Part shown: in pieces, positions 12,163 to 47,205 of the stretch | Position numbering within the stretch: the first letter of the stretch is position 1 | Layout of the letters: every line of letters starts with the position of its first letter | Source: an uncultured Prevotellaceae bacterium | GTDB taxonomy: Bacteria; Bacteroidota; Bacteroidia; Bacteroidales; Bacteroidaceae | DNA: 64,000 bases | Direction: 5' to 3' | Assembly (NCBI GenBank): GCA_902776195.1 | Contig: CACYPF010000006.1 | Coordinates: forward strand, 154,846 to 218,845 | Translations under genes and position numbers: made by a program | The notes under the pieces: generated by a model | Database searches by the model: none | Seen by the model: the letters and a program-made list of their open reading frames with translations, nothing else | Told to the model about the DNA's origin: nothing

Positions 12163-12590
12163 CCGCGCATATGCGCGTACATAAGTTTTTTACCCTTAAA
12201 AGGAGTGAAAAACGAGTGAAGGTGCCGCTTCCTCCTTGCGAAGCCTTAGGTATCATAAATGAAAACTTTATCATGCAGAATTGTAATCTGACTTGGTTTA
12301 CCATGTAAATCAATTTGATTTACTCGGTAATTCAATTTGATTTACTCAGCAATTCAATTTGATTTACTTTGCAAATCAATTTGATTTACAATGAAGGGAG
12401 GCATCTTTTACATCTGTTATTGTTACTGGTATCAAGGGAATCAAGGGTGATAAGGGATGTTGTCCTTGAAATCTATCAATCTGTCAGCCTATCTGTCAGC
12501 ATGCAAGCAGTTGTCTGTCAGTGTGTTAAATCCTCTCGCTGATAGATTGACAGATTTTTCTTGATTTTTAAAACTTAGGTATATTTTTTT
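12163..12590 (+). repeat. Modular non-coding dispersed repeat, copy A
   Basis: Fills most of the 560-nt gap between the lipoprotein and tRNA-Leu and has no credible gene. A reverse-orientation copy (46624-47205) shares, in the same order, a CG palindrome followed by TACATAAG and a run of T plus ACCCTT; a block GAAGCCTTAGGT; a block ATCATGCAGAATTGTAATCT; an array of 22-nt palindromic units; GAAGGGAGGCATC; AATCTATCAATCT with CTGTCAG repeats; and GCTGATAGATTGACAGAT ending AACTTAGGTATATTTTT. Between blocks the copies differ in length and sequence. The outer ends form an imperfect inverted repeat (TACATAAGTTTTT against TACCTAAGTTTTa). Confidence 0.85.
12307..12394. repeat. Four 22-nt palindromic units in copy A
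   Basis: Units at 12307, 12329, 12351 and 12373, each around AATTTGATTTAC. The full form GTAAATCAATTTGATTTAC is itself an inverted repeat (9-bp arms, 1-nt centre). Copy B has three units at 46825-46890. Confidence 0.9.
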
Positions 12591-12640
12591 TGAGGAGAAA
12601 TGAGGTGATCATACTCACGTTCGAAAAAATGCAAATAAAA

Positions 12641-12673
12641 TTTGCTTTTTTACTCACTTATTCGTATCTTTGC
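12641..12673 (+). promoter_or_regulatory. Promoter of tRNA-Leu
   Basis: TTTG at 12641-12644, a 20-nt spacer and TATCTTTGC at 12665-12673; the tRNA begins 28 nt later. Confidence 0.8.
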
Positions 12674-12701
12674 ACCCGCAAAGTGAAAAAACAGGTCTAC
12701 T

Positions 12702-12786
12702 GCCGCGATGGTGGAATGGTAGACACGAGGGACTTAAAATCCCTTGGCCAGTAATGGCTGTGCGGGTTCGAGTCCCGCTCGCGGCA
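12702..12786 (+). tRNA. tRNA-Leu (anticodon TAA)
   Basis: 85 nt with the long variable arm of a class II tRNA. The acceptor GCCGCGA (12702-12708) pairs with TCGCGGC (12779-12785); A12786 is the discriminator. The anticodon stem AGGGA/TCCCT encloses CTTAAAA with anticodon TAA at 12735-12737. The T-arm GCGGG-TTCGAGT-CCCGC is canonical. The next base, 12787, is already the stop codon of the converging HAD gene. Confidence 0.95.
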
Positions 12787-13482
12787 CTAAGACAGCAGAT
12801 GCAGCAGTTCTCTGAATTGCTGCATTTTGTATAGTCGCTCATGAGGGAACTCCTCCGATTTCTCCAGTTCCCACACCACATGATAGGGGATATACGCTGC
12901 CCATGCACCAGCCTGCAGTGCCGGAGCGATATCACTGCGGAACGAGTTGCCCACCATCAGCGTCTCCTCCGGAGCCACGTCCAGGTTCTCACACAACTGC
13001 CGGTATTCCGTCACTGTCTTGTTCGACACCGTCTCCAGACGGCAGAAATACTGCTCCAGTCCCGACCGCCTCAGCTTATCCTCCTGATCCATCAGCTCAC
13101 CCTTGGTGAACACCACCAGGCGGTAGCGCCGTCGTTGCACCAGTGCCTCCAGTGTCTCCTGCACCCCCGGCAGTGGTGTTGTCGGAAACCGCAACAGCTC
13201 CTTTCCCATGTCGATAAGACGCATCACGTCATCACCACTGATCTCCCCGTGCGATATCCGCACCGCATTCTCGATGAGCGACAGGGTGAACGCCTTCGTG
13301 CCATACCCCGTCAGCGACAAGTTCCGGTGCTCGGTGGCAAACAGTCCCTCGCTCACCTCCTTCCTCGTCGCCCACGGCTTCAGCAACTCCGCACACCGCT
13401 CCTCCACCGAGTCAAACCACGACTGGCAGTCCCACAGCGTATCATCCGCATCAAAAGCTATCACCCTAAACTCTCTCTTCAT
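12787..13482 (-). CDS. HAD family hydrolase
   Basis: 231 residues, haloacid-dehalogenase superfamily, predicted phosphatase. Motif I DADDT at 10-14 supplies the nucleophile; motif II is VVFTKGE, and motif III/IV reads LMVGNSFRSDIAPA. The helical cap between motifs I and II resembles the YjjG/phosphoglycolate-type group; the substrate cannot be deduced. It lies 1 nt downstream of the BASS transporter on the same strand (an operon). Its stop codon directly abuts tRNA-Leu on the opposite strand, leaving no room for a separate terminator. Confidence 0.85.
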   Translation of the reverse strand: MKREFRVIAFDADDTLWDCQSWFDSVEERCAELLKPWATRKEVSEGLFATEHRNLSLTGYGTKAFTLSLIENAVRISHGEISGDDVMRLIDMGKELLRFPTTPLPGVQETLEALVQRRRYRLVVFTKGELMDQEDKLRRSGLEQYFCRLETVSNKTVTEYRQLCENLDVAPEETLMVGNSFRSDIAPALQAGAWAAYIPYHVVWELEKSEEFPHERLYKMQQFRELLHLLS

Positions 13483-13483
13483 T

Positions 13484-14455
13484 TTATTTCTTTACCTTTT
13501 CCCTCAACTCTATCGAATTGATAATATTCTGCCACAGCACATAACAGCCTGCCCCTATCGATGCCACCGGATGCAGATACATATACGACACCCAGATACT
13601 CAGCGCCGTGTTCTTCTGGAACAACCCCTGCCCACTGTTGATACGCTCCCCTAAGTAGCGACCCACCAGCCGTCCGATACCGAACTGCACCCAGCATAAT
13701 GCGAAGGTACCCACGGCAATGGCAGCCAGCATCAGTAGCGAAGCCTCGCTATGCACGATATTCTTCACCGTGATACCCGTTGTTATCGACAGAGACACTG
13801 CCCAGCAGTAGAAGCTAAGGTCTGGTACTGACACTATTTTACGGCATACTCCCTTCGCATAATGCTGCATTACCCATCCCAGTACCAGGGGCAGCAGTAA
13901 CACATACGACACTTTCTCCAGTATCGTCAGGAAAGCCTCCGTGAACGCTACGTCAGCCGTCGGCTCCAGCATCGGGAACACCAGTGGTATCAGCAGTGCC
14001 GAGGCAACCGACGACAGCAGCACATACGATGACATCGTCGATATATTACCCCCCAGCTTACCCACCACTACGGGTGATGCCGAGGCTGCGGGACCTATGA
14101 TACATGTCAGCAGTGACTCCCAGAACAACTTGAAACCTGAATTCTGAATCCTGAAACTTGAATCCAGCCGCTCACTGTCCACCGCCAGTGCAATCACCAG
14201 ACCCACCAGCAGCAGTTGTGCGAGGAGCACCCCTGCGTGCCACTTATGCGGTCTCATATCATGGAAGTCCACCTTACAGAATGTCACGAAGAGCGTGGCG
14301 AACACCGTGACGGGGAATAGCGTGTCGAAGACCGGGCTCAGCATATTCCCTGTCTCGTCCAGTGCCGGTACGAGGTAGAATGTCAAGTAACACACCGTCC
14401 CCGTAGCAATAGCCACCGGCAATGTCCAGTCCTTGAGAAAACGCACGATTCGCAT
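13484..14455 (-). CDS. Bile acid:sodium symporter (BASS) family transporter
   Basis: About 323 residues with eight to ten hydrophobic segments and conserved small-residue motifs such as IIGPAASASPVVVGKLGGN and MSSYVLLSSVASALLIPL, typical of BASS-type Na+-coupled organic anion carriers. ATG 14455 is chosen because the -7 box TACCTTTGC lies 20 nt upstream of it, so the longer in-frame extension is untranscribed. The loop SSFRIQNSGFKLF is encoded by a 7-nt repeat. The substrate is unknown. The HAD gene follows 1 nt downstream. Confidence 0.82.
   Translation of the reverse strand: MRIVRFLKDWTLPVAIATGTVCYLTFYLVPALDETGNMLSPVFDTLFPVTVFATLFVTFCKVDFHDMRPHKWHAGVLLAQLLLVGLVIALAVDSERLDSSFRIQNSGFKLFWESLLTCIIGPAASASPVVVGKLGGNISTMSSYVLLSSVASALLIPLVFPMLEPTADVAFTEAFLTILEKVSYVLLLPLVLGWVMQHYAKGVCRKIVSVPDLSFYCWAVSLSITTGITVKNIVHSEASLLMLAAIAVGTFALCWVQFGIGRLVGRYLGERINSGQGLFQKNTALSIWVSYMYLHPVASIGAGCYVLWQNIINSIELREKVKK
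14127..14168 (-). repeat. In-frame heptamer array inside the BASS gene
   Basis: Read on the plus strand: AACTTGA, AACCTGA, ATTCTGA, ATCCTGA, AACTTGA and a decayed sixth unit. It falls in a loop between membrane segments. Confidence 0.85.
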
Positions 14456-14474
14456 AGTTTCTGAAAAATCTTTT

Positions 14475-14483
14475 GCAAAGGTA
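14475..14483 (-). promoter_or_regulatory. -7 box for the BASS-HAD operon
   Basis: On the minus strand TACCTTTGC, 20 nt before ATG 14455. It fixes the start codon choice. Confidence 0.65.
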
Positions 14484-14505
14484 CGCATTTCTTTAAAAAT
14501 TTTAT

Positions 14506-14514
14506 TATCTTTGC
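14506..14514 (+). promoter_or_regulatory. -7 box for comM
   Basis: TATCTTTGC, 49 nt upstream of the comM ATG and divergent from the BASS promoter. No -33 TTTG at the usual distance. Confidence 0.65.
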
Positions 14515-14562
14515 ACCAGAATCTTTTGAATATCAATTATTCATAAAAGTATTCATTACGTT

Positions 14563-16128
14563 ATGTTAGTAAATACATTTTGTGCCGCCGTCAATGGACT
14601 GGAAGTCAATACGGTAAAAGTAGAAATCAGTATGACGAGAGGGGTGCAGTTCCACCTTACAGGACTTGCCGACACTGCCGTTAAGGAGAGTCACGACCGC
14701 ATCAGGGCAGCTCTTCAGAACATGGGGTTTAAAATGCCTGTGATGGATATCACCATCAACTTGTCACCTGCCGATATTAAGAAAGAGGGCTCCGGCTACG
14801 ACCTTCCTCTTGCTATAGGTATCTTGGCTGCCAATGGAAAGATCACCTGTGATTGTCTTAACGAATATATGATGGTGGGAGAGTTAGGTCTTGATGGAAA
14901 GCTACAGCCTATCCGCGGTGCCCTGCCCATCGCCATCAAGGCACGTGCGGAGAAGTTCAAGGGTCTCATTGTTCCCCGGCAGAATGTTCGCGAGGCAGCA
15001 GTCGTTAATCAGGTGGATGTATACGGCATGGACTCTCTGATGGAGGTCATCCAGTTCTTCAACGGCTCCAAAGAGTTTACCCCTACGGTCGTTGACACCC
15101 GCCGGGAGTTCTATGATCACCAGGATGCGTTTGAACTCGATTTTGCGGATGTCCGGGGGCAGGAAAGTGTGAAGCGTGCCCTGGAGGTTGCCGCTGCCGG
15201 TGGTCATAATCTGATTATGATCGGTCCTCCGGGTTCTGGAAAGTCAATGCTTGCCAAGCGACTTCCGGGTATTCTTCCTCCCTTGTCGCTCAGCGAGAGT
15301 CTGGAGACGACCCAGATTCATAGTGTGGCTGGCAAGTTGTCACGTGATACCAGTCTGATATCGCAGCGTCCTTTCCGTGCTCCTCATCATACCATCTCAC
15401 AGGTGGCACTGGTGGGTGGCGGTAACAATCCCCAGCCTGGGGAGATCAGTCTTGCCCATAACGGTGTCCTCTTCCTTGATGAGATGCCCGAGCTCTCACG
15501 CAGTGTACTGGAAGTTTTGCGGCAGCCGTTAGAGGACCGTAAGATCTCGATTAGCCGTGCCAAGTATAATGTGGAATACCCTTGTTCCTTTATGCTCATC
15601 GCCTCCATGAACCCCTGTCCGTGCGGCTATTATGGTGACCCCACCCATCATTGCGCCTGCACCCCAGGACAGATACAACGCTATATGAATAAGATCAGCG
15701 GACCATTGCTTGACCGCATCGACATCCACTGTGAGATACAGGCAGTACCTTTTGCACAACTCTCACAGATGCAGAAGGGGGAGCCGTCGGCAGTCATCCG
15801 CGAACGGGTGATAAAAGCCCGCAACATACAGACCGAGCGTTTTAGCTCCCTCCCTAAACAAGGAGGGCTGGGGAGGGTCTACTGCAACGCTCAGATGACG
15901 GAGCGTATGCTCCATGAGTTCGCAGAGCCCGACAGCGACTCGCTCGACATGCTCCGTATGGCGATGGAGCGTCTGAAACTGTCTGCCCGTGCTTATAACC
16001 GTATCCTGAAGGTGGCACGTACCATCGCTGACCTTGCCGGCAGCGAGAAAGTGGAGTCCATGCATATCGCTGAGGCTATCGGCTACCGCAGTCTGGATAG
16101 GGGAGACTGGGCAGAGCGAGGTGTATGA
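14563..16128 (+). CDS. comM: YifB/ComM family Mg-chelatase-like AAA+ ATPase
   Basis: 521 residues. An N-terminal ribosomal S5-like domain (to ~190) precedes the AAA+ module, with Walker A GPPGSGKS near 221-228, Walker B LFLDEMPEL near 304-312 and a four-cysteine insertion (CPCGYYGDPTHHCAC). In characterised relatives ComM is a hexameric helicase that promotes branch migration when transformed DNA is integrated. Around 427-438 the chain contains SLPKQGGLGRV, encoded by a GC-rich element related to the one in ribD. Length is close to family norm. Confidence 0.93.
   Translation: MLVNTFCAAVNGLEVNTVKVEISMTRGVQFHLTGLADTAVKESHDRIRAALQNMGFKMPVMDITINLSPADIKKEGSGYDLPLAIGILAANGKITCDCLNEYMMVGELGLDGKLQPIRGALPIAIKARAEKFKGLIVPRQNVREAAVVNQVDVYGMDSLMEVIQFFNGSKEFTPTVVDTRREFYDHQDAFELDFADVRGQESVKRALEVAAAGGHNLIMIGPPGSGKSMLAKRLPGILPPLSLSESLETTQIHSVAGKLSRDTSLISQRPFRAPHHTISQVALVGGGNNPQPGEISLAHNGVLFLDEMPELSRSVLEVLRQPLEDRKISISRAKYNVEYPCSFMLIASMNPCPCGYYGDPTHHCACTPGQIQRYMNKISGPLLDRIDIHCEIQAVPFAQLSQMQKGEPSAVIRERVIKARNIQTERFSSLPKQGGLGRVYCNAQMTERMLHEFAEPDSDSLDMLRMAMERLKLSARAYNRILKVARTIADLAGSEKVESMHIAEAIGYRSLDRGDWAERGV
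15846..15879 (+). repeat. GC-rich hairpin-like element inserted in frame in comM
   Basis: It begins CTCCCTCCCTAAACAAGGAGG and runs into a CTGGGGAGGGTC end, with an inverted repeat (CTCCCT/AGGAGG). It aligns with the ribD element (pattern CCCT-A-CA-GG-AGG-TGG-G-GGGTC) and is translated in the same frame. Confidence 0.75.
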
Positions 16129-16139
16129 CATTCATTCAT

Positions 16140-17867
16140 TTATTGCATCGGGAAAACTTTCTTGCCCTCGAAAGTAAGCTTGAATACCGTTTTTCCTTTA
16201 AATACGGTTTCGAGAACCTGGATATCTTGAATCTGGTCGGCAGGAGTGGTCTCGATGTCACTGTCCAAGACAACCAGTTCTGCCGATTTACCCACTTCAA
16301 TGGAGCCGGTAACCTGTTCCAGATGAGCCTGGTATGCCGTGTGGATAGTATGTGCCTGAAGAGCCTGCTTCAGGCTGACACACTCCTCTGGCATGGCGGC
16401 TGGAACATCCTTGTACAGCTCGTAGGTCAAATCTATCTTAACCAGTCTGCGTGTCATCGCCACCTGAATACCGGCAAGACCGTAGGCGGCATTGACAAAG
16501 AAGTCTGAGCCGTAGGCACATACCACGCCATTGTCTATCAAAGACTTGCTGGGATAGGATTGTCGGGCAACCTCCTCGCCCCAGTAGTCTGCCATGATGG
16601 GTTGTGAGGTGGGACAGTCGCTGAACCATCCTGGCTGGTTGCTGGCAATGATATGGCTCTTGCCCATGCGTACCCTGTCTTCAGGGGTTATAAAGGTGCA
16701 GTGGGCAATGATGTTCCGGATATCGGGATTGGGGTACTGCCGTTGTGCATTCTCATAGCAGTCGATGACTTTGCGGATGGCATAATCGCCCATGGCATGC
16801 GTATGGATACTGAAACCTTCCTTGTTGGCAAGCGCCATCGATTCCTGCATGTGGTCTTCATCCCATAGCAACGGTGCACGAGTACCTGCCAAGTCGGCAC
16901 CAGCCGTCTCGACAAAGGGCTCCAGCATGGAGAGGGTCCCGTCGGCAAAGTATTTCACGGTATCAACCTTAAACAGTCCATCTACATCATATTTGGTGCG
17001 ATTGGCAATGGCTTTCTTAAGGTCTTCTTCCCGTGTGGGGTCGTTGACATTGTGAACACCAGACACTCTGGCAGTAAATTCGCCATTCTTTGCCATCTCC
17101 GTAAGCACGTTGTAGGCGGGCTCTATCTGCTGACAGTCGCAGAGCAGCGTGTATCCTTTTGCATTGAAGATGTCAAACGTCTGCTTTATGCAGTCGTAAT
17201 GCTCCTTCGTCGAGAACTCATAGTTAGGAATACGGTCAATGATGGGAATATAGGCAACAGGCTCCTTGATATAGCCGCTTGGACTCCCGTCGGCTTCCTT
17301 GACTATCAGACCGTTTTGGTCGTCAGTGTCTTTCGTGATACCAGCAGCCTCCAGTGCCTTCGTGTTCAGCAGCACACGGTGTCCGCAGAACGACATGAGG
17401 ACTGCAGGCTTATCGGGTACGACAACATCAATGTCATGTCGGGTGAAGGGGCGTACGATGCCCTGAAGGGTCCCTGAGAACCAGGCTCTGTCCCAACCCA
17501 GTCCTCTGATTACCAGAGCATCCTTGTGTTCTGCCACATAGGCTCTCAGCATATCTTGTATCTGTTTGACCACACCCTCCGGTGTGTCCGTCTTGGGATT
17601 GGGTACAATACTGCTAAAGCTGCACGTACCGAATTTCTTCGCGGCATGGGCGAGGTGCATGTGTGCATCGCCAAGACCGGGGATGACGCTCTTGCCGTTG
17701 CAATTAACAACTTCGGTGTCATTGCCTATCCATGCTTCAACACCTGCTTCGTTTCCAACGTATGCGAATTTGCCGTCCTTGATGGCAAGCGCCTCCGCAT
17801 GTGTTTCCGTTCCGTCCAGTGCGACGGAATAGATCTTCGCATTTCTATAAACTTTGTCTGCTACCAT
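16140..17867 (-). CDS. YtcJ-like metal-dependent amidohydrolase
   Basis: 575 residues, amidohydrolase_3 family. The metal-binding HxH is H69/H71 in GLGDAHMHLAHAA; further metal ligands are in HTHAMGDYAIR and IIAHCTFITPED; the C-terminal beta-sandwich ends in VFKGKTVFKL. There is no signal peptide, so it is cytoplasmic. Members act on N-substituted amides or formamides but most are uncharacterised. It lies 32 nt downstream of the alpha/beta-hydrolase gene on the same strand, probably in one operon, and ends 11 nt from the converging comM. Confidence 0.85.
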   Translation of the reverse strand: MVADKVYRNAKIYSVALDGTETHAEALAIKDGKFAYVGNEAGVEAWIGNDTEVVNCNGKSVIPGLGDAHMHLAHAAKKFGTCSFSSIVPNPKTDTPEGVVKQIQDMLRAYVAEHKDALVIRGLGWDRAWFSGTLQGIVRPFTRHDIDVVVPDKPAVLMSFCGHRVLLNTKALEAAGITKDTDDQNGLIVKEADGSPSGYIKEPVAYIPIIDRIPNYEFSTKEHYDCIKQTFDIFNAKGYTLLCDCQQIEPAYNVLTEMAKNGEFTARVSGVHNVNDPTREEDLKKAIANRTKYDVDGLFKVDTVKYFADGTLSMLEPFVETAGADLAGTRAPLLWDEDHMQESMALANKEGFSIHTHAMGDYAIRKVIDCYENAQRQYPNPDIRNIIAHCTFITPEDRVRMGKSHIIASNQPGWFSDCPTSQPIMADYWGEEVARQSYPSKSLIDNGVVCAYGSDFFVNAAYGLAGIQVAMTRRLVKIDLTYELYKDVPAAMPEECVSLKQALQAHTIHTAYQAHLEQVTGSIEVGKSAELVVLDSDIETTPADQIQDIQVLETVFKGKTVFKLTFEGKKVFPMQ

Positions 17868-17899
17868 ATCGTTTCTGTATTATCTGATTTTTAGCAATT

Positions 17900-19555
17900 T
17901 TAATAGTTTGCCCGCATCCACTCGATGATACGAAGGAAAAAGGTCAGTGCCGATGTCTCGTGATTGGTTATGCCAAGTTCCTTTGTCGTTGCCGAGCTGT
18001 ACTCGCCGACAAATTCTTGTGTTTTGATGTCATGATCCTTTAGGAACTTGCTCATGGCGTAAAAGTTCTCCACTGGTACGACATCATCGTTCGTATCGTG
18101 GAAGAGCATCACATCCAAATCGCTACGAGGTGTCCATCCACTGGTGAGGGCATCTTCTCTGAACGTTTCCTTGAATCGGAGTGATAGTGGACTATTGGTA
18201 TCGAGGACTGCCGCTGTGCAGAAGTCACCCGTCTTCTTGGTCTTGATGAGTTCCTCGTCAAGTGCTTTACGTTTATACTTCTTGCTGAGGAACCACTCTT
18301 CGAAGTTCTTTGCCACGGGATCCTTCAGATAGTCGTTGATGCCGTAACCCAGGCGGAAGAAGTAGTTGAAGGCATAGAGCACGTTACAGACGGTGCTTGG
18401 CATTTCGGTGTTTCCTTTGCTGATGGCATCATACATCGAGTTGATGTCGTAGGGACCGTCGCCGGCGAAGGCTCGTTTCACCTTTACTTCTGGATGACGC
18501 TCTGAAATCTCGCGCAAGACACCTATCGTGGTCTGAGCCCCCTCCGAATAGCCTGCAATGACAAAGTCGTCGCCTTTCTTCACTTTCAAGTCTTCTATCA
18601 TCCGCTTTGCTGCGAGATAGGCATCGAGCGAGGCACGGCCATTAGCCCGTGAGATACAGTATGCCTGCGGTTCTTTCTCGGTGATACCGAAGCCGTAGTA
18701 GTCGGGTGCCACGACGATGAAGTTGGTGAGGGCTGCACCTGTTGGGAACTCAACAGCCCCACGCGAAGGTGCCTGTGTGGTAGCGTAGATGGTGAAGTGA
18801 TTATAGAGTAAAATACCATTGAAAGACTTATTATCTTTGATGAGTGACTTGTCAACTGTAATGGTACCGCTGAGGGTGCAGGGATTGCCGAAGGGATCGA
18901 TGGAGGGGTAGTTGAACACGTAGTTCATCAGGTTGTCGGAAATCAGCACAGGGATACTATCGGTGATGCAGGCAGGTGGGAGGGTGGACTTTGCCATCCA
19001 GTCCTGAATCAAATCGCTCTTTCCGCTGTCAGCCTTGGTAAGCGTCCCTTTATGGGATGCATTACTGAAAGTGACAGTACCCTGATTACAATTCAAATTC
19101 ATCTGACCAATATCGACGAAATTGTTGTGATTCCCCGTACTGTCTGTTCCAGCCGACCTGAGTGTCTTGTCTGTCTTGGGGGCATCCAGAATGATATGCC
19201 CGTCGGCTGTTACCTGCCATGTGAACGGTGCATCTGTCGGACCGCCGTAAGTCTCAAGAGGCTCGTTGAACTCGTCGTCAAACACTGACAGCGCGACATA
19301 ACCCGTGTGGTCGGCTTTCACCTCCATTGTAATCATGGCGCGGTTGAAGGGCTTCCCTTTCTCAGTCACATCCTTGTAGTCGAAATCTTCATACCACAGT
19401 CCGATGAGGTCCTTTTCCATCTCCTGCTGACTGGGGCTTGGGATGTTGTCTGTCTTGTCTGTGCAGGAAACCATCCCCCAACCCATGCAGATGATGGTGA
19501 CCATCATCCAGTTTTTGACTATGTAGAAAAGTTGGGTCGAATTAAATGTCTTCAT
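17900..19555 (-). CDS. Exported lipoprotein: alpha/beta-hydrolase with N-terminal beta domain
   Basis: 551 residues. The signal peptide ends in a lipobox (GMVSC). Residues ~45-185 form a beta-rich, lipocalin-like domain (LIGLWYEDFDY...). The rest is an alpha/beta-hydrolase resembling secretory lipases, with the nucleophile elbow GYSEG near 333-337, a likely acid in FHDTNDDVVPV and a possible histidine in NHETSALTFF near the C-terminus. It likely hydrolyses an ester outside the inner membrane; the substrate is unknown. The sequence before it holds only a weak -7-like TACTTTTAC. The next gene downstream is the amidohydrolase. Confidence 0.8.
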   Translation of the reverse strand: MKTFNSTQLFYIVKNWMMVTIICMGWGMVSCTDKTDNIPSPSQQEMEKDLIGLWYEDFDYKDVTEKGKPFNRAMITMEVKADHTGYVALSVFDDEFNEPLETYGGPTDAPFTWQVTADGHIILDAPKTDKTLRSAGTDSTGNHNNFVDIGQMNLNCNQGTVTFSNASHKGTLTKADSGKSDLIQDWMAKSTLPPACITDSIPVLISDNLMNYVFNYPSIDPFGNPCTLSGTITVDKSLIKDNKSFNGILLYNHFTIYATTQAPSRGAVEFPTGAALTNFIVVAPDYYGFGITEKEPQAYCISRANGRASLDAYLAAKRMIEDLKVKKGDDFVIAGYSEGAQTTIGVLREISERHPEVKVKRAFAGDGPYDINSMYDAISKGNTEMPSTVCNVLYAFNYFFRLGYGINDYLKDPVAKNFEEWFLSKKYKRKALDEELIKTKKTGDFCTAAVLDTNSPLSLRFKETFREDALTSGWTPRSDLDVMLFHDTNDDVVPVENFYAMSKFLKDHDIKTQEFVGEYSSATTKELGITNHETSALTFFLRIIEWMRANY

Positions 19556-19614
19556 AAATCAATATTTTAGGTGTAAAAGTACTTAAAATTCCACAAAACA
19601 CAGCACGAATGATT

Positions 19615-19914
19615 TCATGTAGTAGTGCAAGAGAGCTGATTCCCCCCCTCGAATAGTTGGTATCTGTTCTTCAGTATAGCTACGTCAGCATCAGTTGCCG
19701 TCGAGAGATTACCACTGCGTACCAGTCTGTCGAAACAGATGGTGCGTCCGTCTTGCATGACGAGACCACCCATGTCTCGGCTGTTTTCAATACCTTCAAA
19801 TGTGATGACGCGCTCACGTGGCTTAGACGTGTTGTTGTCCGAATCGGAGGTACACGCTGCGAATATATTCATGCCACAGAAGATGGCGACAAACATCCTT
19901 AAAGTTTTTTTCAT
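19615..19914 (-). pseudogene. Truncated tyrosine-phosphatase-type lipoprotein
   Basis: 99 codons. The start is intact: a signal peptide with lipobox (FAAC), then the entry region of a tyrosine/serine phosphatase (Y_phosphatase3 type): IENSRDMGG, RLVRSGNLS. The frame ends soon after a run of seven C at 19642-19648, before the catalytic HCxxGKDRTG motif such enzymes carry 100 or more residues later. None of the remainder is recognisable before the hydrolase gene starts at 19555, so this is a 3'-deleted remnant. A -7-like TATTTTTG (minus strand, 19950-19957) still precedes it. Confidence 0.7.
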
Positions 19915-20056
19915 ATCTGTCTTTTTTGTTTGTTGTGATTAGTCGCATACAAAAATACATTAAAAATCTCAACCTACCAAAAAGGGCATCCAATTTTCAT
20001 ATATATCGGAAAAAATAAATTATAGGTTTAGTTTCTTATCCATGGATCTAAATGAA

Positions 20057-20092
20057 AGAGTCCCTGCGGTGCGGGATGCACGCAGGGACTCT
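20057..20092 (-). terminator. Terminator of secDF
   Basis: A perfect 12-bp stem AGAGTCCCTGCG / CGCAGGGACTCT with a 12-nt loop, 25 nt past the secDF stop on the minus strand, followed by a short T run. Confidence 0.8.
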
Positions 20093-20116
20093 TATATTGA
20101 ATTCAAACTAAGATGC

Positions 20117-23119: not shown

Positions 23120-23163
23120 TGTTGTTATATTATTAATTTTTTACGATTCCGCAATTTTAGCCT

Positions 23164-23172
23164 GCAAATATA
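23164..23172 (-). promoter_or_regulatory. -7 box for secDF
   Basis: On the minus strand TATATTTGC, 44 nt before the secDF ATG. Confidence 0.6.
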
Positions 23173-23221
23173 CGTATTTTTCTTCACTTACCGAAATTTA
23201 TTCAGGAAATTCGCATTTTTT

Positions 23222-35254: not shown

Positions 35255-35268
35255 TGTAAACGTTTGCG
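35255..35268. promoter_or_regulatory. Operator-like palindrome between the MFS gene and malQ
   Basis: TGTAAACGTTTGCG matches 12 of 14 positions of the perfect palindrome at 37758-37771. No -7 box is seen between it and malQ, so it may be a weak, internal or roadblock site. Confidence 0.5.
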
Positions 35269-35273
35269 CATCT

Positions 35274-36581: not shown

Positions 36582-36602
36582 ATTATTTTTCTTTTGTTAT
36601 TA

Positions 36603-36644
36603 CTATATATACTATAGTACCTATAGTGCCTATAGGAACTATAT
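36603..36644. repeat. CTATAG nonamer array after lacI
   Basis: Cores at 36603 (CTATAT), 36612, 36621, 36630 (CTATAG) and 36639 (CTATAT), exactly 9 nt apart. The last core ends 1 nt from the lacI stop codon, just as the array at 10166 abuts a stop codon. Confidence 0.92.
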
Positions 36645-36645
36645 C

Positions 36646-37671: not shown

Positions 37672-37693
37672 TGCGGTTCTTAGTATTGTGATT

Positions 37694-37702
37694 GCAAAGT
37701 TA
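37694..37702 (-). promoter_or_regulatory. -7 box for the lacI-MFS-malQ-susB-pul-susA operon
   Basis: On the minus strand TAACTTTGC, 22 nt before the lacI ATG. The central operator begins exactly 55 nt upstream of it. There is no TTTG at the -33 position. Confidence 0.65.
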
Positions 37703-37757
37703 TTGAAAAGTTCTTTTTGTGGTACGTCAACCTTATTTATTTATAAGCATTTACGAA

Positions 37758-37771
37758 TGCAAACGTTTGCA
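37758..37771. promoter_or_regulatory. Central LacI-type operator of the starch locus
   Basis: TGCAAACGTTTGCA is a perfect 14-bp palindrome with a CG centre. It is exactly 55 nt from the -7 box of lacI (37694-37702) and exactly 55 nt from the -7 box of susC (37827-37835). The position is too far upstream for simple blocking of RNA polymerase and fits an activator site. Confidence 0.8.
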
Positions 37772-37826
37772 CATTCCTAATAACGTTTTTAACTCAAAAA
37801 AAGTATTAACGAATCAAAACATCTTC

Positions 37827-37835
37827 TATCTTTGC
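37827..37835 (+). promoter_or_regulatory. -7 box for susCDEF
   Basis: TATCTTTGC, 65 nt before the susC ATG. No TTTG at the -33 position, as expected for an activator-dependent promoter. Confidence 0.7.
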
Positions 37836-37900
37836 ACTTGATTTAAATCAAATGTTTTGAATACGTGAACTAAAATTATATTACTAACTCTAAAAAAGAA

Positions 37901-40900: not shown

Positions 40901-40945
40901 CCACGCAGTCGCACATTCCTTGTGGGACTTAACCTCAACTTCTAA
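37901..40945 (+). CDS. susC: SusC-like TonB-dependent outer-membrane transporter
   Basis: 1014 residues. Signal peptide to ~29 (GAFAQ), then a carboxypeptidase-regulatory-like domain (IDVKGHVKDAQGEPIIGATV) usual in SusC proteins, the plug (DPLIVIDGMQMDN; TAIYGSRGSNGVIIITTKKG) and a 22-stranded barrel ending in an aromatic residue (LVGLNLNF). It imports starch oligosaccharides with SusD using TonB energy. First gene of susC-D-E-F, controlled by the operator and -7 box upstream. The operon looks more A/T-rich than its neighbours. Confidence 0.96.
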   Translation: MMKQVNIKSPLRMLVLLLGLFLSVGAFAQIDVKGHVKDAQGEPIIGATVRVVGTQTATVSDFDGNFVLKANQGADISVSYVGYQTQTVKAAANLDITLQEDATMLENVVVIGYGVARKTDLTGSVTAIKPDEKNHGILTTAQDMISGKIAGVNVNTSNGEPGGGAQIRIRGGASLNASNDPLIVIDGMQMDNNATKGVSNPLALVNPNDIESFTVLKDASATAIYGSRGSNGVIIITTKKGRRNQAPKVSYNGTFSVSSVSKKLDVMDSNQYRQFIMDYYGEASDAYAGLGEANTNWQDEIYRNGISHDHNVSVAGGIGNQKWAMPYRVSVGYTNQQGILKGSDYSRFTAGFTMNPSLLDDHLNLNINGKYAYSKTNPGGQGAIGMATRMDPTRPVKSEEEQFNNWGGYWQWVNPTTAFDPTYPYALKSDAPTNPVELIDHYTFDKSSHTLLGNFEADYKIHGFEDLRIHMNLAGSYSYGGEYTNNNPMSTYGYYYGGKGDNTEKKYNVLASLYAQYFKDFDKANHFDIMAGYEYSRTKYWGNSWYKDLYPETNQGTDDNGNPLAGTIHSSSDSFWRGQMILVSWYGRANYSLLDRYLFTVNFRADGSSRFADGHRWGFFPSVAAGWRIKDEAFLKNVDEISELKLRLSWGQTGQQNTGKEYYTPTYKMTIGNDRLYPIGANNPGTLFQPLVYNNDLTWETTTTWNAGIDFGMFNQRLTMTLDAYIRKTTDLLCTPTIAAGQNYDNAMLLNAGSLKNTGIEIAISGKPLVTKDWFVELGVNAAYNKNKVTELYGGRDMIEAGLKVGMQKSLTYHKVGEPANSFWVYQQVYDETGRPIQGVYVDRNADGNIDDNDRYFYKNIAAPWTGGLYFKVAYKNWDLGTNFRFSLGNYVYNGLIESRMNSAERYQASKGFYENTTADVAALRWTSYDYPLSDYFVQNASFLKCDNITLGYNFEELFKGANYHGLSGRIYASCSNVFTITKYKGLDPEQVSGFEGSVYPRSRTFLVGLNLNF

Positions 40946-40971
40946 TCACATAACTAAATACAGAACGAAAT

Positions 40972-42690
40972 ATGAAACTCAATAAATTCAAAGCAAAGGT
41001 TTTGGCAGTAGCCTTGATGATGGCTGCCACTCTGACCTCCTGCATGGCCGACCTTGATAAAGGTAATATTGACCCTACAGTTCAATCAGAGCCAGACATT
41101 ACTGCACTTTATAGCAAGTGTTACGCTTGTCTGATTTTAGAGGGTATGGATGGTAACGCAGACTTCCAAGTCAATGACAATGGTAAGTCAACTTTTATAC
41201 GTAATCTCTTTAATGCCAATGTGTTGTCAACGGACGAAGGTATCTGTTGGTGGACAGACGGTGGTTTGGAAGATTATGGTCTCAATACTCCGAAGCCCAA
41301 TAGCGATGCTATTCGCTTTTTGTATTATCGTCTGATCATGGATGTCAGTTACTGTAACCATTATTTGGAATTAGAGGGAGCCCAGGCAGACCAAACGAAA
41401 CTTGCAGAAGTTCGCTTTATCAGGGCATACCTTTACTATCAGTTACTGGATCTTTTTGGCGATCCTTCGTTTATTCCAGCTATCTCGACAGAGATGCCTC
41501 GTCAGGCTCATGCTTATAGTGAAAAATTCCAAGAAAGTACCAATTATTCACGTGCTGAGTTACTGGCAATGGGTCGTGAGTTCCTTTTCAACTGGGTGGT
41601 TAACGAGTTGAAAGAGGCTGAGCCGAATCTGATGGAACCTCAACCTAAGACAGACAAAGACGCAGATTATGGACGCGTAGACAAGGCTGCTGCTTGGCTG
41701 ATGTTAAGTCGCGTATATTTGAATGCTGGAACCTATCTGAACAACGATGGTCAAAACAATCCTTATTGGGCAGAGGCTCTGTCGTATGCAGAAAAAGTGA
41801 TTAATTCAAGCTACTCTCTCTTTGATGACAGCAAGATGTCTGCGGAGGCTAAGGCTAATGGCTATAAGCCTTACGACCTGTTGTTTATGGGCGATAACGG
41901 CTCAAATGGTTCTTCATGTGAGGCTATTTTCCCATTGCTCCAGGATGGTAAAGTCACTAAGGCTTGGGGTGGATCTATGTTCTTTGTTGCTGCCATGTGG
42001 GATGCCAATATGGCAACTGTGACTGGCAAGGATGCTGCTACTACGCAGAATGGCTGGTCTGGTATGCGTTGCCGTCCTCAGTTGGTTGAGAAATTTACCA
42101 GTAATCCAGCTTCCTATGTAGACAAGACAGCCGAGGAAATTCGTGCTATGAGTACCGATGACCGTGCCATCTTCTGGGGAAAAGGTCATACTTTGTCAGT
42201 TTATCCTAATGATGCCTTTACAAGTGGTATCGTTACTCCTAAATGGAATAATAACTACTCTAATGGAGGAACGCCACACGACAATGAGAATGTTGATATC
42301 GATTTCTTCCTGCTTCGTGCAGCAGAGGCATATTTGAATGCTTCCGAGGCTGCCTTGCATATTGGTGACGCAGGCAAGGCAAAGACATATATGGATGCCA
42401 TTCGCAACCGAGCCCATGCAACTACTCGTAGCAGCTATTCTTTGGATGATGTTCTCGATGAGCGTGCTCGTGAGATGTATTTTGAGGGTATTCGTCGTCC
42501 TGATCTGATTCGCTACAACTACTTTGGTGGTGTCGGTGTAACATATGGTTGGGAAGGTAAGGGAGGTAATACTGGTTATACTGGTGCTCCTTTCGAGAAA
42601 TACCTTAATGTATATCCCATTCCTTCATCAGAAGTTATGGCGAACTCTAACCTGACTCAGATAGATGGATATACTGAGATAGAAGAATAA
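40972..42690 (+). CDS. susD: SusD-like starch-binding outer-membrane lipoprotein
   Basis: 572 residues with a lipobox (LTSC, Cys23). TPR-type helices typical of RagB/SusD proteins are visible (VRFIRAYLYYQLLDLFGD; AAAWLMLSRVYLNAG) and the C-terminal RagB/SusD region has ERAREMYFEGIRRPDLIRYN. SusD caps the SusC barrel and binds the glucan. It lies 26 nt after susC. Specificity for starch is inferred from the neighbouring susE, susF and GH13/GH97/GH77 genes. Confidence 0.95.
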   Translation: MKLNKFKAKVLAVALMMAATLTSCMADLDKGNIDPTVQSEPDITALYSKCYACLILEGMDGNADFQVNDNGKSTFIRNLFNANVLSTDEGICWWTDGGLEDYGLNTPKPNSDAIRFLYYRLIMDVSYCNHYLELEGAQADQTKLAEVRFIRAYLYYQLLDLFGDPSFIPAISTEMPRQAHAYSEKFQESTNYSRAELLAMGREFLFNWVVNELKEAEPNLMEPQPKTDKDADYGRVDKAAAWLMLSRVYLNAGTYLNNDGQNNPYWAEALSYAEKVINSSYSLFDDSKMSAEAKANGYKPYDLLFMGDNGSNGSSCEAIFPLLQDGKVTKAWGGSMFFVAAMWDANMATVTGKDAATTQNGWSGMRCRPQLVEKFTSNPASYVDKTAEEIRAMSTDDRAIFWGKGHTLSVYPNDAFTSGIVTPKWNNNYSNGGTPHDNENVDIDFFLLRAAEAYLNASEAALHIGDAGKAKTYMDAIRNRAHATTRSSYSLDDVLDERAREMYFEGIRRPDLIRYNYFGGVGVTYGWEGKGGNTGYTGAPFEKYLNVYPIPSSEVMANSNLTQIDGYTEIEE

Positions 42691-42719
42691 TTGTTAAATC
42701 GAATAATAAGAAACGCAAT

Positions 42720-43934
42720 ATGAAGAATAAACTATTGCTTGGTGCACTGCTTATCGGCATCACCAGCTTATTCACAGCTTGCTCGGACGATAACGGCTCA
42801 AATCCTTCGCTTATACAGCCTACAGGATTTGCGTTGAATACGCCAGCATTTGCCAATGAGACTGTTGATTTGGAGGCGACTAGCGAATTGCAATTGTCAT
42901 GGTCTCAGCCTCAATACACAACAGATAATGCACCCCTACTGGTGACTTATGAAATTCAGGTATCACCAACCAACTCGTTTACAGTTTCTGTTGATGAAGC
43001 TGCAGCCGATGAGTCTGGGGAGACGGTTGCTGATTATGCAGCTATCGCTCGTACTACGACCCAGTGTACTTATACTCTTCTGTCTAAAGACTTAGATAAA
43101 GCATTGGTGCAGGTGATGAAATGGAAAGAAAGTGAAGTCCCTGCAGAGCAAACTGCTTTTCTGCGTATTAATGCATTTATCTTGGAGAATGGAGTACGCC
43201 TGAATAGTGTTTTCTCCAATTCTGTAGAACTTAAATTCAATCCTTATTATATTGAGTTGAAAGACGCTGCTCCTATTATGTGGTATCTTGTTGGTAATAA
43301 CATCCTTGACGGTGGATGGAGCAATGATCCTGGCGTAAGCAGTCTGCCGATGTTCATACAGAGTGATTATGCCTACGATAAGACCACTGGAACGGGTGAG
43401 ATCACCTATCTGAACTATTTTACCACTGATGGATGGAAGATACAGCCAGCAGATTTCAACTGGGATTTAGGCTTTATGAGTGGCGGCTCTGCTAATACTG
43501 CAGTATTCCGTAATGGTGACAACGATGCTGGTAACATATGGTGCGAGCCGGAGGGCTATTATCTTGTTACTGTGAATACGGCTTCTAATCAGTGTACGAT
43601 TGCTGCACAAGACATTAGTCCAAAGGTGTTTACGCAGGTATGTATGGCTGGAACATTTAATGATTGGGCTGATACCAATATGACACCAGCGAACAAAAAT
43701 GGTGAAAACCATGTTTGGGTATATGTGATGGATGTTGAAGCAGGAAAGACAGAGCAGTTTAAATTTAAAGAAGCAGGATCCTGGGATACAAACTGGGGGT
43801 ATGGCTCCTTTGATGGTGAGGTGAACACTTGCGGTGTTGCTAAGGGCGGTGCCCCTAACATTGGTATTGAAGAAGGCACATGGGTCATCGTGTTCAATGA
43901 TATCACCGGTGAGTTTAGTATTATTAAAAAGTAA
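42720..43934 (+). CDS. susE: SusE-like surface starch-binding lipoprotein
   Basis: 404 residues. Lipobox FTAC (Cys21); an N-terminal SusE immunoglobulin-like domain (ELQLSWSQPQYTTDNAPLLVTYEIQVS); then two carbohydrate-binding modules beginning near MWYLVGNNILDGGW and VCMAGTFNDWAD. Size and domain number match Bacteroides SusE (two CBMs). It would hold starch at the cell surface and help set oligosaccharide size. It lies 29 nt after susD. Confidence 0.9.
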   Translation: MKNKLLLGALLIGITSLFTACSDDNGSNPSLIQPTGFALNTPAFANETVDLEATSELQLSWSQPQYTTDNAPLLVTYEIQVSPTNSFTVSVDEAAADESGETVADYAAIARTTTQCTYTLLSKDLDKALVQVMKWKESEVPAEQTAFLRINAFILENGVRLNSVFSNSVELKFNPYYIELKDAAPIMWYLVGNNILDGGWSNDPGVSSLPMFIQSDYAYDKTTGTGEITYLNYFTTDGWKIQPADFNWDLGFMSGGSANTAVFRNGDNDAGNIWCEPEGYYLVTVNTASNQCTIAAQDISPKVFTQVCMAGTFNDWADTNMTPANKNGENHVWVYVMDVEAGKTEQFKFKEAGSWDTNWGYGSFDGEVNTCGVAKGGAPNIGIEEGTWVIVFNDITGEFSIIKK

Positions 43935-43954
43935 TCTAAAAGAGTAAGAGCATT

Positions 43955-45439
43955 ATGAAAAAAATTATATTGTGTGGAATAGCCTTGGTTGCAGGATTAA
44001 TGTCCTGCACCGAGGACTACAATGACTGGGCTAGTCCACAGAGCAATGCTGCTGGCGAACTGAATCCCCCAACGGAGATGATGTTACAACCTACGGCTAG
44101 TGCTATTGACTTTTCTGTTGTGACTGACGAGACAATCCAGTTGTTCACTACAAACCTGCAGGAAGGTCAGGTCGAGTCTTACAATGTTAAAATCGAAGGT
44201 GCCGACATTGACAAGGATGTGACTATTGTGGCAGACAAAGATGGTTATATTAAAGCATCAGAGTTGAAAGATGCTGTCAATACTTTATATGGTGCTGCTC
44301 CCGTAGAGCGTACTTTAATACTTACAGTGTCTACACAAGTGAAGGTCACTACAGAGGAGGGAGTCGTTATTGTTAAGAGGGAAGCAAATCCATATGAGAT
44401 AAAGGTAACTCTTGATGCTCCTTATATCGATGCAAATGGCTATTATGTAGTTGGTAATATCGATGGATGGAAGTGCATAAGGGTTGATGCCTACCATATG
44501 ACGAATAATGGCGGACCTGTTTATGACAACCCAGAGTTCAGTGTAGAGATAGAAGCTGTTGACGGCATTTCAACCTATGAAATCAAAGCTATTCCTGCAT
44601 CAGATTTCAAGGAGGACGGTAACGTTAACACTTGGGATCGGGCATTCTCCGCAGCAGAAGGTGTTGATGAGCCAGCTTATGAAGGAACCTTGTCTAACTC
44701 AAATAAGGGTGGAAACATTAAGTTCAATGCTATTGAGGGGTCATCATCATACCTCCTTACCATTAATGCCATGACTGCTACTTATACAGTGGTGGCTCAG
44801 TCGGCTGGTGCTGTCTTTGATACAGATCCTGTGCTTTACTTAACCGGTGACCACTATAATTGGGGCGGTTCTGCGGACGACTGGATTCCGATGGTTCCTG
44901 TTTACGATAACCCTAACCTCTCATGGATTATCATATATCTGCATGAGTGGGAGAAGATTAAGTTTGCTCCCCAGCAGGGATGGGGTGGTGACTTCGGTTA
45001 CGATGCTGAGTCAGTAATAGATAATGCCGGGGCAGGTGCACAGGCAGATGGTTCTAACCTGATGGTTAGCAATGCTGGGTGGTATCTCCTTAAAGTCGAT
45101 AAGACTTCTGGAGCCCGTTCTGTCACTATTGATAAGCCCAATATCTATCTTATTGGTAATACAGCACCTGCTGGTTGGAATGTAGAGGAGTCTGGTCTGT
45201 TCACTATCCCCGATACAGAAACTGGTAAGTTCGTTTCTCCCGCCTTTGTTGCCGATGACGAGGTGAGAATGTGTATCAAATTTGCCGATAACGTTGACTG
45301 GTGGAAGACGGAGTTCGTTGTTACTGCGAAGGGACAAATTGATTATCGTGGCGCTGGCGGTGACCAGGCACGTGTCAAAGTTTCTACAGGACAGAAGTGC
45401 TATTTGAACTTCAATAATGGTTCTGGTTCGTATAAGTAA
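43955..45439 (+). CDS. susF: SusF-like surface starch-binding lipoprotein
   Basis: 494 residues. Lipobox LMSC (Cys18), an N-terminal Ig-like domain, then three CBM repeats starting near YYVVGNIDGWKCI, LYLTGDHYNWGG and IYLIGNTAPAGWN. Bacteroides SusF likewise has three starch-binding modules, so the assignment is secure. It is the last gene before the terminator at 45463-45499, which separates it from the GH53 gene. Confidence 0.9.
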   Translation: MKKIILCGIALVAGLMSCTEDYNDWASPQSNAAGELNPPTEMMLQPTASAIDFSVVTDETIQLFTTNLQEGQVESYNVKIEGADIDKDVTIVADKDGYIKASELKDAVNTLYGAAPVERTLILTVSTQVKVTTEEGVVIVKREANPYEIKVTLDAPYIDANGYYVVGNIDGWKCIRVDAYHMTNNGGPVYDNPEFSVEIEAVDGISTYEIKAIPASDFKEDGNVNTWDRAFSAAEGVDEPAYEGTLSNSNKGGNIKFNAIEGSSSYLLTINAMTATYTVVAQSAGAVFDTDPVLYLTGDHYNWGGSADDWIPMVPVYDNPNLSWIIIYLHEWEKIKFAPQQGWGGDFGYDAESVIDNAGAGAQADGSNLMVSNAGWYLLKVDKTSGARSVTIDKPNIYLIGNTAPAGWNVEESGLFTIPDTETGKFVSPAFVADDEVRMCIKFADNVDWWKTEFVVTAKGQIDYRGAGGDQARVKVSTGQKCYLNFNNGSGSYK

Positions 45440-45462
45440 ATAATCCTTAAACAATAACCATG

Positions 45463-45499
45463 ATCAGGCGGACAGGAACTTAAGCCTTGTCCGCCTGAT
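45463..45499 (+). terminator. Terminator after susF
   Basis: A perfect 12-bp stem ATCAGGCGGACA / TGTCCGCCTGAT followed by TTTTGATT. It ends 16 nt before the GH53 start, with no new -7 box visible, so GH53 would depend on read-through. Confidence 0.85.
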
Positions 45500-45515
45500 T
45501 TTGATTCAAGCAGTG

Positions 45516-46604
45516 ATGAAAAGAATCTTTATATTATTAATAGGTACGTGTATGGCATTGTCGGTCTCTGCACAGCAACGGTTTCTGGGTGGTGACCTGT
45601 CTATGCTGCCGTCGTATGAGGATGCCGGCACGGTCTATCGTGACTCGGCTGGTAAGCAGGTGAAACCCTTGCGGTTCCTGAAGCGACAGGGGTGGAATGC
45701 GGTGAGGGTCCGCTTGTTCGTTGACCCGCAGTTTGCCAGCAAAGAACATCAGGGAGAGGGTGTCTGTCAGGACTTGGACTATGTCATCCGTCTGTCGAGG
45801 CAGGTGAAGAAGGCTGGTCTTGCCCTGATGCTTGACTTCCATTACAGTGACACATGGGCTGACCCTGCCAAGCAGTTTATGCCGAAACGCTGGAAGGATG
45901 CGGCTCCTGAGACCCTGCCCGACTCGGTCTATGCGTATACCCGTCATTGTTTGGAGCGGATGATAACTGCCGGCTGTGTACCAGAGATGATACAGGTGGG
46001 CAATGAGATTACTAATGGTATGATGTGGGAAGTAGGACGTGTCAATGCCGCAGGTAGCGAGGGCTTCGACGTGCTGTCCCTTCTGTTAAAGGGTGGCGTC
46101 CGTGCCTGTCGGGAAATGTGTCCGAAGGCGAAATTGATCATTCATACAGAGAAGGCGGGCGACTGGACAGTCACCAAGAACTTCTATGAGCAGATGCGTC
46201 GCTATCAGGTGGACTACGACATCATCGGACTGTCGTATTATTCGATGTGGCACGACCGTCTGCCCGTACTCCATAACACCCTCGATTCCCTCGCCGCCGT
46301 GTTTCCCGAGAAGGAGGTGATGATCGTGGAGACGGCTGCTTATTACTCCCATGAGAACGACCGATGGGCGAAAGGTCCTGACCAGTATAGCGAGTTCTAC
46401 CCGATAACCACTGAGGGGCAGCGCCAGTTTACCGCTGAGCTGATGGCAGAACTGCGTCGTCACCGGCATGTGACAGGTGTCTTCTGGTGGTTCCCGGAGG
46501 AGAATGAGAGTGGGCGGCAGGTCACTAACTACTGGCTCAACAGAGGCTTGTTCGACAATCATACAGGTCGTGCCAAGCCCGCACTCTATGAACTGAAGTG
46601 GTAA
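45516..46604 (+). CDS. GH53 endo-beta-1,4-galactanase
   Basis: 362 residues with a signal peptide (to ~20). A full GH53 barrel: FLGGDLSMLPSYEDAG at the mature N-terminus, RLFVDPQ, LDFHYSDTWADPAKQ, the acid/base Glu in QVGNEITNG (near 163) and the nucleophile Glu in VMIVETAAYY (near 271). It cuts beta-1,4-galactan of pectin, not starch, so it is functionally out of place after susF. ATG 45516 is chosen; an upstream TTG lies inside the terminator tail. The DNA is visibly more G/C-rich than susCDEF, and it is followed by the dispersed element, suggesting a later arrival. Confidence 0.93.
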   Translation: MKRIFILLIGTCMALSVSAQQRFLGGDLSMLPSYEDAGTVYRDSAGKQVKPLRFLKRQGWNAVRVRLFVDPQFASKEHQGEGVCQDLDYVIRLSRQVKKAGLALMLDFHYSDTWADPAKQFMPKRWKDAAPETLPDSVYAYTRHCLERMITAGCVPEMIQVGNEITNGMMWEVGRVNAAGSEGFDVLSLLLKGGVRACREMCPKAKLIIHTEKAGDWTVTKNFYEQMRRYQVDYDIIGLSYYSMWHDRLPVLHNTLDSLAAVFPEKEVMIVETAAYYSHENDRWAKGPDQYSEFYPITTEGQRQFTAELMAELRRHRHVTGVFWWFPEENESGRQVTNYWLNRGLFDNHTGRAKPALYELKW

Positions 46605-46623
46605 ATGAAATAAATAGCCCTGC

Positions 46624-47205
46624 TAAAAATATACCTAAGTTTTTAAAATCGAGAAAAATCTGTCAATCTATCAGCGAGAGGGTATAACGTATTGACAGAC
46701 AACCGAATGCACGCTGACAGATAGGCTGATAGATTGATAGATTCAATGATGGCATCTTCATTAGCAGGAGGTGCCGTTTTCTCTTGACAACGGCAACAGC
46801 AGCCCTTGTAAAGGATGCCTCCCTTCATTGTAAATCAAATTGATTTGCAAAGTAAATCAAATTGAATTGCTGAGTAAATCAAATTGATTTACATCGTAAA
46901 CCAAGTTAGATTACAATTCTGCATGATATCGTTTTCATTGACGTTGCCTAAGGCTTCAACCATTGAAGCCCGTACCTTCGCCCCTCGTTGCCTAAAGCTT
47001 CGACCCTTGAAGCTTAGGGCTTCGTCCCCCGAAACCTAAGGCTTCACAAGGAGGACTTCACTCGTTTTTATACGTATTTTAAGGGCAAAAACGCCATTCG
47101 TTGTCACCCTTGTCACCTTGTTGCTACCGCAAGTATTTGATTATCAAATAGTCTTGCAAGGCGGCAACGGTTGCAAGGGTAAAAAACTTTATGTATGCGC
47201 GCGAG
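46624..47205 (-). repeat. Modular non-coding dispersed repeat, copy B
   Basis: The reverse-orientation partner of 12163-12590, filling most of the 764-nt gap between GH53 and the amylase. It carries the same blocks in the same order but is longer (~582 nt). It has three rather than four 22-nt units, plus an extra tandem of CGAAGCTTTAGGC-like segments (46950-47050) and an extra segment with TGACAAGGGTGACAA. No coding sequence is credible in it. Confidence 0.85.

Follow-up and report, generated by a model that had tools for sequence, protein, structure and literature searches.

What are the two non-coding stretches that lie 34 kb apart and in opposite orientation in a 64,000-nucleotide piece of an uncultured Prevotellaceae genome (hereafter the window, meaning that whole piece), and what could have spread them? 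They are two of dozens of dispersed, intergenic, non-coding copies of a modular repeat family in the window's own genome (G000, rumen-type and Prevotella-like), and each end of the window element matches the arms of a unit that bears a gene for a VapE helicase, the left and right ends coming from two different families of such arms. On balance, we lean slightly towards the reading that the window stretches are non-autonomous composites, similar to miniature inverted-repeat transposable elements (MITEs), derived from elements of the form arm, array, vapE, arm, and copied via an initiator-type helicase.

A sequence-only reading of the window had described a modular element with at least six blocks in common order, and both of its copies are present at the places and in the orientations that it gave, with seven blocks counted. 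From left to right these are TACATAA(A)GTTTTTTACCC, AAAACGAGTGAAG, GAAGCCTTAGG, block C (39 bp), array D, block E, and block G, the last being 120 bp long with the right end AAAACTTAGGTA. Aligning the copies confirmed that the sequence between the common blocks differs; these segments appear wholly different because the numbers of repeat units vary and inner parts are missing. The same reading was also correct in finding no gene inside either copy (both are intergenic, with no open reading frame (ORF) of at least 100 amino acids), a variable number of internal tandem repeats (array D has four units in copy 1 and three in copy 2), and an imperfect inverted repeat of about 13 bp at the ends. Using copy 1 as the query, copy 2 is matched with E=1.9e-89 and 80% over query positions 78-426. 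Copy 1 is a reduced form that has lost the greater part of both the left hairpin A and array B. The parts of both copies are as follows.

12178..12581, plus strand: copy 1 of the composite repeat, from TACATAAG (left end) to CTTAGGTA (right end)
12175..12221, plus strand: remnant of module A, hairpin deleted and both outer parts retained (matches A1 1-24 and 108-143)
12258..12296, plus strand: module C, 95% to the module
12303..12391, plus strand: module D, 22-bp tandem array of 4 units, unit GTAAATCAATTTGATTTAC + 3
12388..12412, plus strand: module E
12470..12588, plus strand: right module G, a hairpin arm of the family of arms around the VapE gene at G000:C15 (fold z -4.0)
46625..47198, minus strand: copy 2 of the composite repeat, full module set
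47056..47198, minus strand: left module A, a hairpin arm of the family of arms around the VapE gene at G000:C8 (fold z -4.7)
46942..47045, minus strand: module B, 22-bp tandem array, unit like CGAAGCCTTAGGCAACGAGGGT
46901..46939, minus strand: module C
46825..46893, minus strand: module D, 22-bp tandem array of 3 units
46803..46831, minus strand: module E
46751..46775, minus strand: module F, short hairpin GGCACCTCC..GAAGATGCC (pairing by eye)
46625..46744, minus strand: right module G, hairpin arm (fold z -5.0)

Searching G000 with copy 1 gave 58 matches (palindromic arrays match on both strands) and searching it with the left part of copy 2 gave 25; together with ten stretches taken by place, the loci of both queries merge into 38 regions. 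The module order A-B-C-D-E-F-G is fixed across the copies read, where A comprises the left end TACATAAAGTTTTTTACCC and a hairpin, B consists of 22-bp units like CGAAGCCTTAGGCAACGAGGGT, C has 39 bp, D has 2 to 6 units of 22 bp (GTAAATCAATTTGATTTAC plus 3), F is a small hairpin, and G is a hairpin followed by the right end AAAACTTAGGTA. At least A, C, D, and G are found in five regions, or six when window copy 1 with its reduced A is counted, and the remaining regions span A to D, run from C or D to G, or consist of one module, including seven lone D arrays. Nearly all module clusters (40 of 41) overlap no ORF of at least 100 amino acids, the exception being one 182-amino-acid ORF call. Short, non-coding, multicopy, and dispersed, the family is real, lineage-restricted, and MITE-like by form.

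Two other classes were considered for these stretches and rejected. CRISPR does not apply, as the units adjoin at 22-bp spacing without spacers. A structured RNA gene, one of three identities offered by the sequence-only reading, found no support either: neither copy matches Rfam at the gathering score (two tRNAs are the sole matches in the window), and covariation was seen in 0 of 19 pairs of hairpin A. Many A modules have on their left a run of alternating GC that varies in length (window 47199-47220; also L002, L007, L008, and L053) and is often preceded by GTATCAGAATTCC, which is itself repeated. Close to the end of the window, at positions 63761-63819, is another 22-bp tandem array (2.7 copies, unit TTCACTCTAATATCTCCCATGC).

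The link to VapE comes from the end modules. At G000:C8, two facing A modules 2.2 kb apart enclose one long ORF of 618 amino acids, and one arm overlaps its stop codon. The layout at G000:C15 is similar: another long ORF is bracketed by two inverted G modules, 93% identical over 147 bp, one of which is 7 bases away from the stop. Both encoded proteins combine BT4734-like_N, VapE, and DUF3874. The C15 unit also holds a DUF6078 ORF between arm and vapE (G000:C15:43388-43831, L027, by Pfam); a small ORF resembling DUF6078 by eye occupies the same position, between arm and vapE, in another element family at G035:C10:100314-100754 (L168 1715-2155), G035 being RUG037, an uncultured rumen Prevotellaceae and sister genome of G000. 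A third VapE gene of G000 (C3:176k, 399 amino acids) lies within a third arm pair, family H, whose arms are 128 bp long and 90% identical. Further H arms, many among the matches listed, occur in G000 and G035, alone or as close inverted pairs. A full H element is present at G035:C20, and at the orthologous G000:C33 only its two ends are seen, with a perfect 23-bp inverted repeat; G000:C33 is a gene-less form at the same site. One arm usually lies within some tens of bases of the vapE stop codon. Compared with shuffled sequences, 13 of 14 arms fold better (z -2.8 to -8.0), while the H arm of L117 does not (z -0.8).

The association was then assessed across the genus, where 36 of 60 genomes, G000 included, together contain 108 matches to PF12990 (DUF3874). 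For these 108 places, 40 stretches were picked by hand, favoring good assemblies and higher scores, and 38 of them had a VapE ORF; adding five G000 genes, which were taken from PF05272, gives 43 VapE loci, which are not a random sample because of the hand-picking. Among the G000 genes, L119 has no DUF3874 match and L116 has one below the cut-off. Excluded from the 43 were L115, where VapE is next to a relaxase-like ORF, and L169 and L174, in which no VapE ORF was found. Arms were scored as an inverted repeat of at least 35 bits between the 1.5 kb upstream and an interval that starts 60 bp ahead of the stop and ends 200 bp past it, and arrays as a tandem period of 21-23 within 500 bp upstream.

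By these measures, flanking inverted repeats are found at 22 of 43 VapE loci compared with 0 of 151 other ORFs, and upstream arrays at 27 of 43 (25 with a period of exactly 22) compared with 6 of 200 controls. After removal of proteins at least 85% alike, arms remain at 18 of 36 loci, an array at 21 of 36, and both at 14 of 36. A larger control set of 232 ORFs of at least 250 amino acids gave arms at 1 of 232, itself a VapE gene of G006, and an array at 8 of 232 (Fisher p 4e-17 for arms and 2e-15 for the array, against these 232); these controls are six-frame ORFs, some of them not real genes. Most come from G000 and G035, and the VapE genes of L273-L281 are among them. One locus, L120, was scored as armless because its stretch was short; a longer stretch (L208) shows arms, 93% over 147 bp, raising the count to 23 of 43. 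The unit sequences of the arrays vary between loci, close copies aside, and on visual inspection many are palindromic. The iteron-type arrangement, in which an initiator-type helicase gene sits beside short tandem repeats, is thus found at 27 of the 43 VapE loci; the window element itself has no gene. As a correlation, the link to VapE helicases is strong. Outside the genus, PF12990 occurs in 7 of 118 genomes of the order, and one such locus (G173) is followed downstream by 21-22-bp arrays and short inverted repeats.

Gene-less relatives of arm-flanked units were found when the arms of two VapE loci, L156 and L179, out of seven arms prepared, were searched for extra copies. The L156 arm has 31 copies of at least 108 bp in the complete genome G024, two of which are its own, leaving 29 extra, and had no match in seven other genomes. 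In G024, 22 such arms form 11 inverted pairs spanning 0.8-1.1 kb; all 10 pairs fetched contain several units of a GGTAAT..ATTACC array, and in all 4 pairs compared the arms and array align in order to the vapE element with the gene missing. The L179 arm gave 91 matches in G079, 60 of them at least 85 bp long, of which two are its own and 58 extra, and 56 arms of at least 85 bp make up 28 inverted pairs, the two arms of a pair being about 60-200 bp apart. It had no match in five other genomes, and weak matches in G000 and G035 fall at family H places. Separately, G024 holds four copies (L151-L154), about 95% alike over about 4.4 kb (two blocks in the comparison with L153), of a stretch that includes a 693-amino-acid VapE gene and a 5-unit 22-bp array; no element ends and no clear arms were found for these four.

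What do the arm-flanked proteins have in common? The Walker A lysine of the helicase is retained in 23 of 23 (the 22 of the genus test and L120). The single PDB sequence match of the A-type VapE is 7pds, annotated as 'Similar to D. nodosus vapE', which we take to be a SaPI-type Rep, that is, one from Staphylococcus aureus pathogenicity islands (SaPI). Since DUF3874 is positioned at the protein end, it is a fair guess that this domain may act in array binding. Primase motif I is given as hhhDhD/E in the accessible part of its description (PMC5862659), and all 12 long arm-flanked proteins lack it at the aligned position, the other 11 being short and without that part. Among the 20 VapE proteins without arms, motif I is at the aligned position only in L116 and L163. 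In L156 and L151-L154, a match to the primase-motif pattern lies elsewhere in the protein. L178 and L179 of G079 encode VapE proteins that are 95.5% identical, with array units that differ and downstream arms alike at 73% over 82 bp; the stems of their arms differ, and the hairpin tip TGTACATCGG is common to both. Relatives of VapE under 60% identity are found in 65 plasmid records and 415 phage records, and none was confirmed in viral contigs.

Turning to the distribution of the window family, the sequence-only reading had staked its case on further copies in related genomes, and these exist: apart from G000, clear matches were found in 2 of 59 relatives searched, G035 and G006 (in G006 mainly array D), with a single 30-bp match in G014. 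A two-unit D pattern searched in GTDB r220 contigs was found in 12 stretches, each belonging to RUG037. Of the seven lone D arrays, six lie at orthologous sites in G000 and G035, as does one A-to-D element (83-98% alike). Both window copies are absent from the corresponding sites in G035, and the flanks of both sites are collinear there; therefore, the suggestion that the opposite copies might invert the 34 kb between them is not supported. At the site of window copy 2 (G035:C45:36525-36707, L111), G035 carries a different short repeat that is GGTTGACTGGAGTCGGCAG-like. On the contig that holds the window, about 33 kb ahead of it, a segment of about 33 kb is inverted between the two genomes (G000:C6:88283-121335 and G035:C20:102761-140215).

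How might such elements move? We propose that the unit of arm, 22-bp array, vapE, and arm would be a small replicon-like mobile element. Like SaPI Rep on its iterons, the VapE helicase might assemble as an initiator on the 22-bp array and then unwind the DNA, after which host enzymes would copy the DNA between the hairpin arms and a further step would join the copy into intergenic DNA. Units without vapE but with arms and array could be copied in trans. The window element would then be a composite of modules from several families, amplified and later worn by deletion, and it may have arisen as a fusion of units of these families. We infer binding, copying, insertion, and trans-mobilization by VapE, the assembly step by analogy and the remaining steps from the pattern of copies; VapE as the driver of mobility is a hypothesis with about even odds. 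It is also possible, with a likelihood that we place somewhat short of even, that the units represent a transposon-like class without a transposase, in which a hairpin-arm unit with a VapE/DUF3874 helicase as its sole shared gene spreads itself and gene-less derivatives through the intergenic DNA of one genus, the window elements being composites of such derivatives; as part of this same joint proposition, the primase part would be absent or without its catalytic motif, and the 22-bp array would be fixed in length and free in sequence.

Several findings weigh against deriving the window stretches from VapE elements. No movement was observed. About half of the VapE loci are without arms, including L116 and L119 of G000 even on longer stretches, and outside the genus neither arms nor an upstream 22-bp array was found at any of 7 loci in 6 genomes. 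The two ends of one window element, A and G, belong to two VapE families; the arrays upstream of A- and G-type VapE genes differ from arrays B and D, and the 12 stretches examined in G000, G035, and G006 have no array D close to a VapE gene. No target duplication is evident by eye in 10 G024 elements. The window sites in G035 carry unrelated intergenic DNA and so are not clean empty sites. Arm-flanked proteins are not alone in having lost the primase motif. Finally, the arm and array differences between L178 and L179 tell against strict sequence recognition; since these near-identical proteins have different arrays and arms, recognition, if any, may be by geometry (22-bp phase and hairpin) more than by sequence.

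Could the partner be something other than VapE? Repetitive extragenic palindromic (REP) sequences and bacterial interspersed mosaic elements (BIMEs), with their REP-associated tyrosine transposase (RAYT), are hairpin units that flank a gene and scatter as gene-less copies, in mosaic forms. Our repeats could likewise be moved in trans by a RAYT, an insertion sequence (IS), or a recombinase, with VapE genes merely captured between arms. The hairpin units, mosaic order, and intergenic placing do resemble BIMEs, and D arrays have no partner VapE gene, RAYT and IS families not having been searched for. However, chance capture should strike other genes too, whereas different arm families bracket one helicase family, at 18 of 36 loci compared with 1 of 232 controls, itself VapE, and we therefore regard this explanation as unlikely. 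More doubtful still is that the repeats are MITEs of an IS family now lost or hidden in a genome gap. Imperfect terminal inverted repeats, a non-coding body, and an internal minisatellite would suit such an origin, for which BrickBuilt, with IS5-like ends in the accessible part of its description (PMC4596501), is the model; yet no target duplication is evident, and the gene between matching ends is VapE, with transposases not searched for. Accordingly, the statement of the sequence-only reading that the element is no standard IS, MITE, REP, or CRISPR stands as regards CRISPR and gains from the VapE helicase between matching arms, and for the rest it is limited in that transposases were not searched for in the genome.

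A similarly low probability attaches to the copies being host-domesticated sites (transcription terminators, or nucleoid or replication sites) spread by recombination. Strong hairpins do adjoin T runs, and the six lone D arrays and the A-to-D element shared by G000 and G035 are at the same place in both. Nevertheless, the family is lineage-restricted, only G035 and G006 of the 59 relatives matching apart from one 30-bp match, and it follows no positional rule, with the neighboring ORFs of the 41 clusters being tandem at 22, divergent at 10, convergent at 7, and unassigned at 2. A chromosome-organizing role, also offered by the sequence-only reading, gained no support in the analyses run. The best of its three identities is a miniature mobile element, given the dispersed copies, their absence at the G035 sites, and the arms common to gene-bearing units.

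Helicases of the VapE type are common, and little is understood about them. If our reading is true, arm-bounded units that share no gene other than the helicase would multiply and give rise to gene-less copies, a form of DNA mobility outside the transposase and recombinase classes known to us, and intergenic repeats confined to particular Prevotella lineages, such as PINSR, would gain a candidate driver. The hypothesis lends itself to direct testing, since the arms, the array, and the helicase are identifiable in several genomes. In the titles and abstract openings of the open-licence literature, we found no earlier report linking VapE/DUF3874 genes to flanking repeats or MITEs, and the term 'DUF3874' had no match in that literature.

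Among known systems, REP/BIME repeats with RAYT are similar in having hairpin units around a gene together with scattered gene-less copies and mosaics; their partner is a Y1 transposase, whereas here a helicase is seen, the arms are about 90-150 bp, and there are 22-bp arrays. BrickBuilt, a MITE of Porphyromonas gingivalis, is described in the accessible text as a leader and tail around 23-nt tandem repeats (PMC4596501), and the window family is like it in being intergenic and non-coding, with leader and tail, tandem repeats, deletions from the ends, and a limited host range. However, BrickBuilt ends match IS5-family ISPg elements whereas window-family ends match arms around VapE genes, and its unit is 23 nt compared with 22 bp in two arrays per element here. 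Membership in BrickBuilt was rejected, its ends being GAGACCTTTGCA and those of the window family TACMTAARTTTTT, with a unit of 22 bp.

PINSR of Prevotella intermedia, with 177 and 184 copies in two strains and judged non-coding (PMC4755523), is likewise a lineage-specific intergenic repeat in Prevotella, and no driver is named in the accessible part of that report. Compared by description, PINSR is 188 bp long and reported without terminal inverted repeats, unlike the window family. P. intermedia strains have several VapE genes, some of them strain-specific, according to the accessible part of another report (PMC4349605). Closest to the proposed initiator role are the replication modules of SaPI and staphylococcal cassette chromosome (SCC) elements, in which, as far as the accessible text describes them, an initiator helicase is likewise found beside short tandem repeats (PMC7581432). 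In SaPI and SCC, there is one origin in a large island with recombinases, whereas the units described here are bounded by hairpins, carry one or two genes, and have many gene-less copies.

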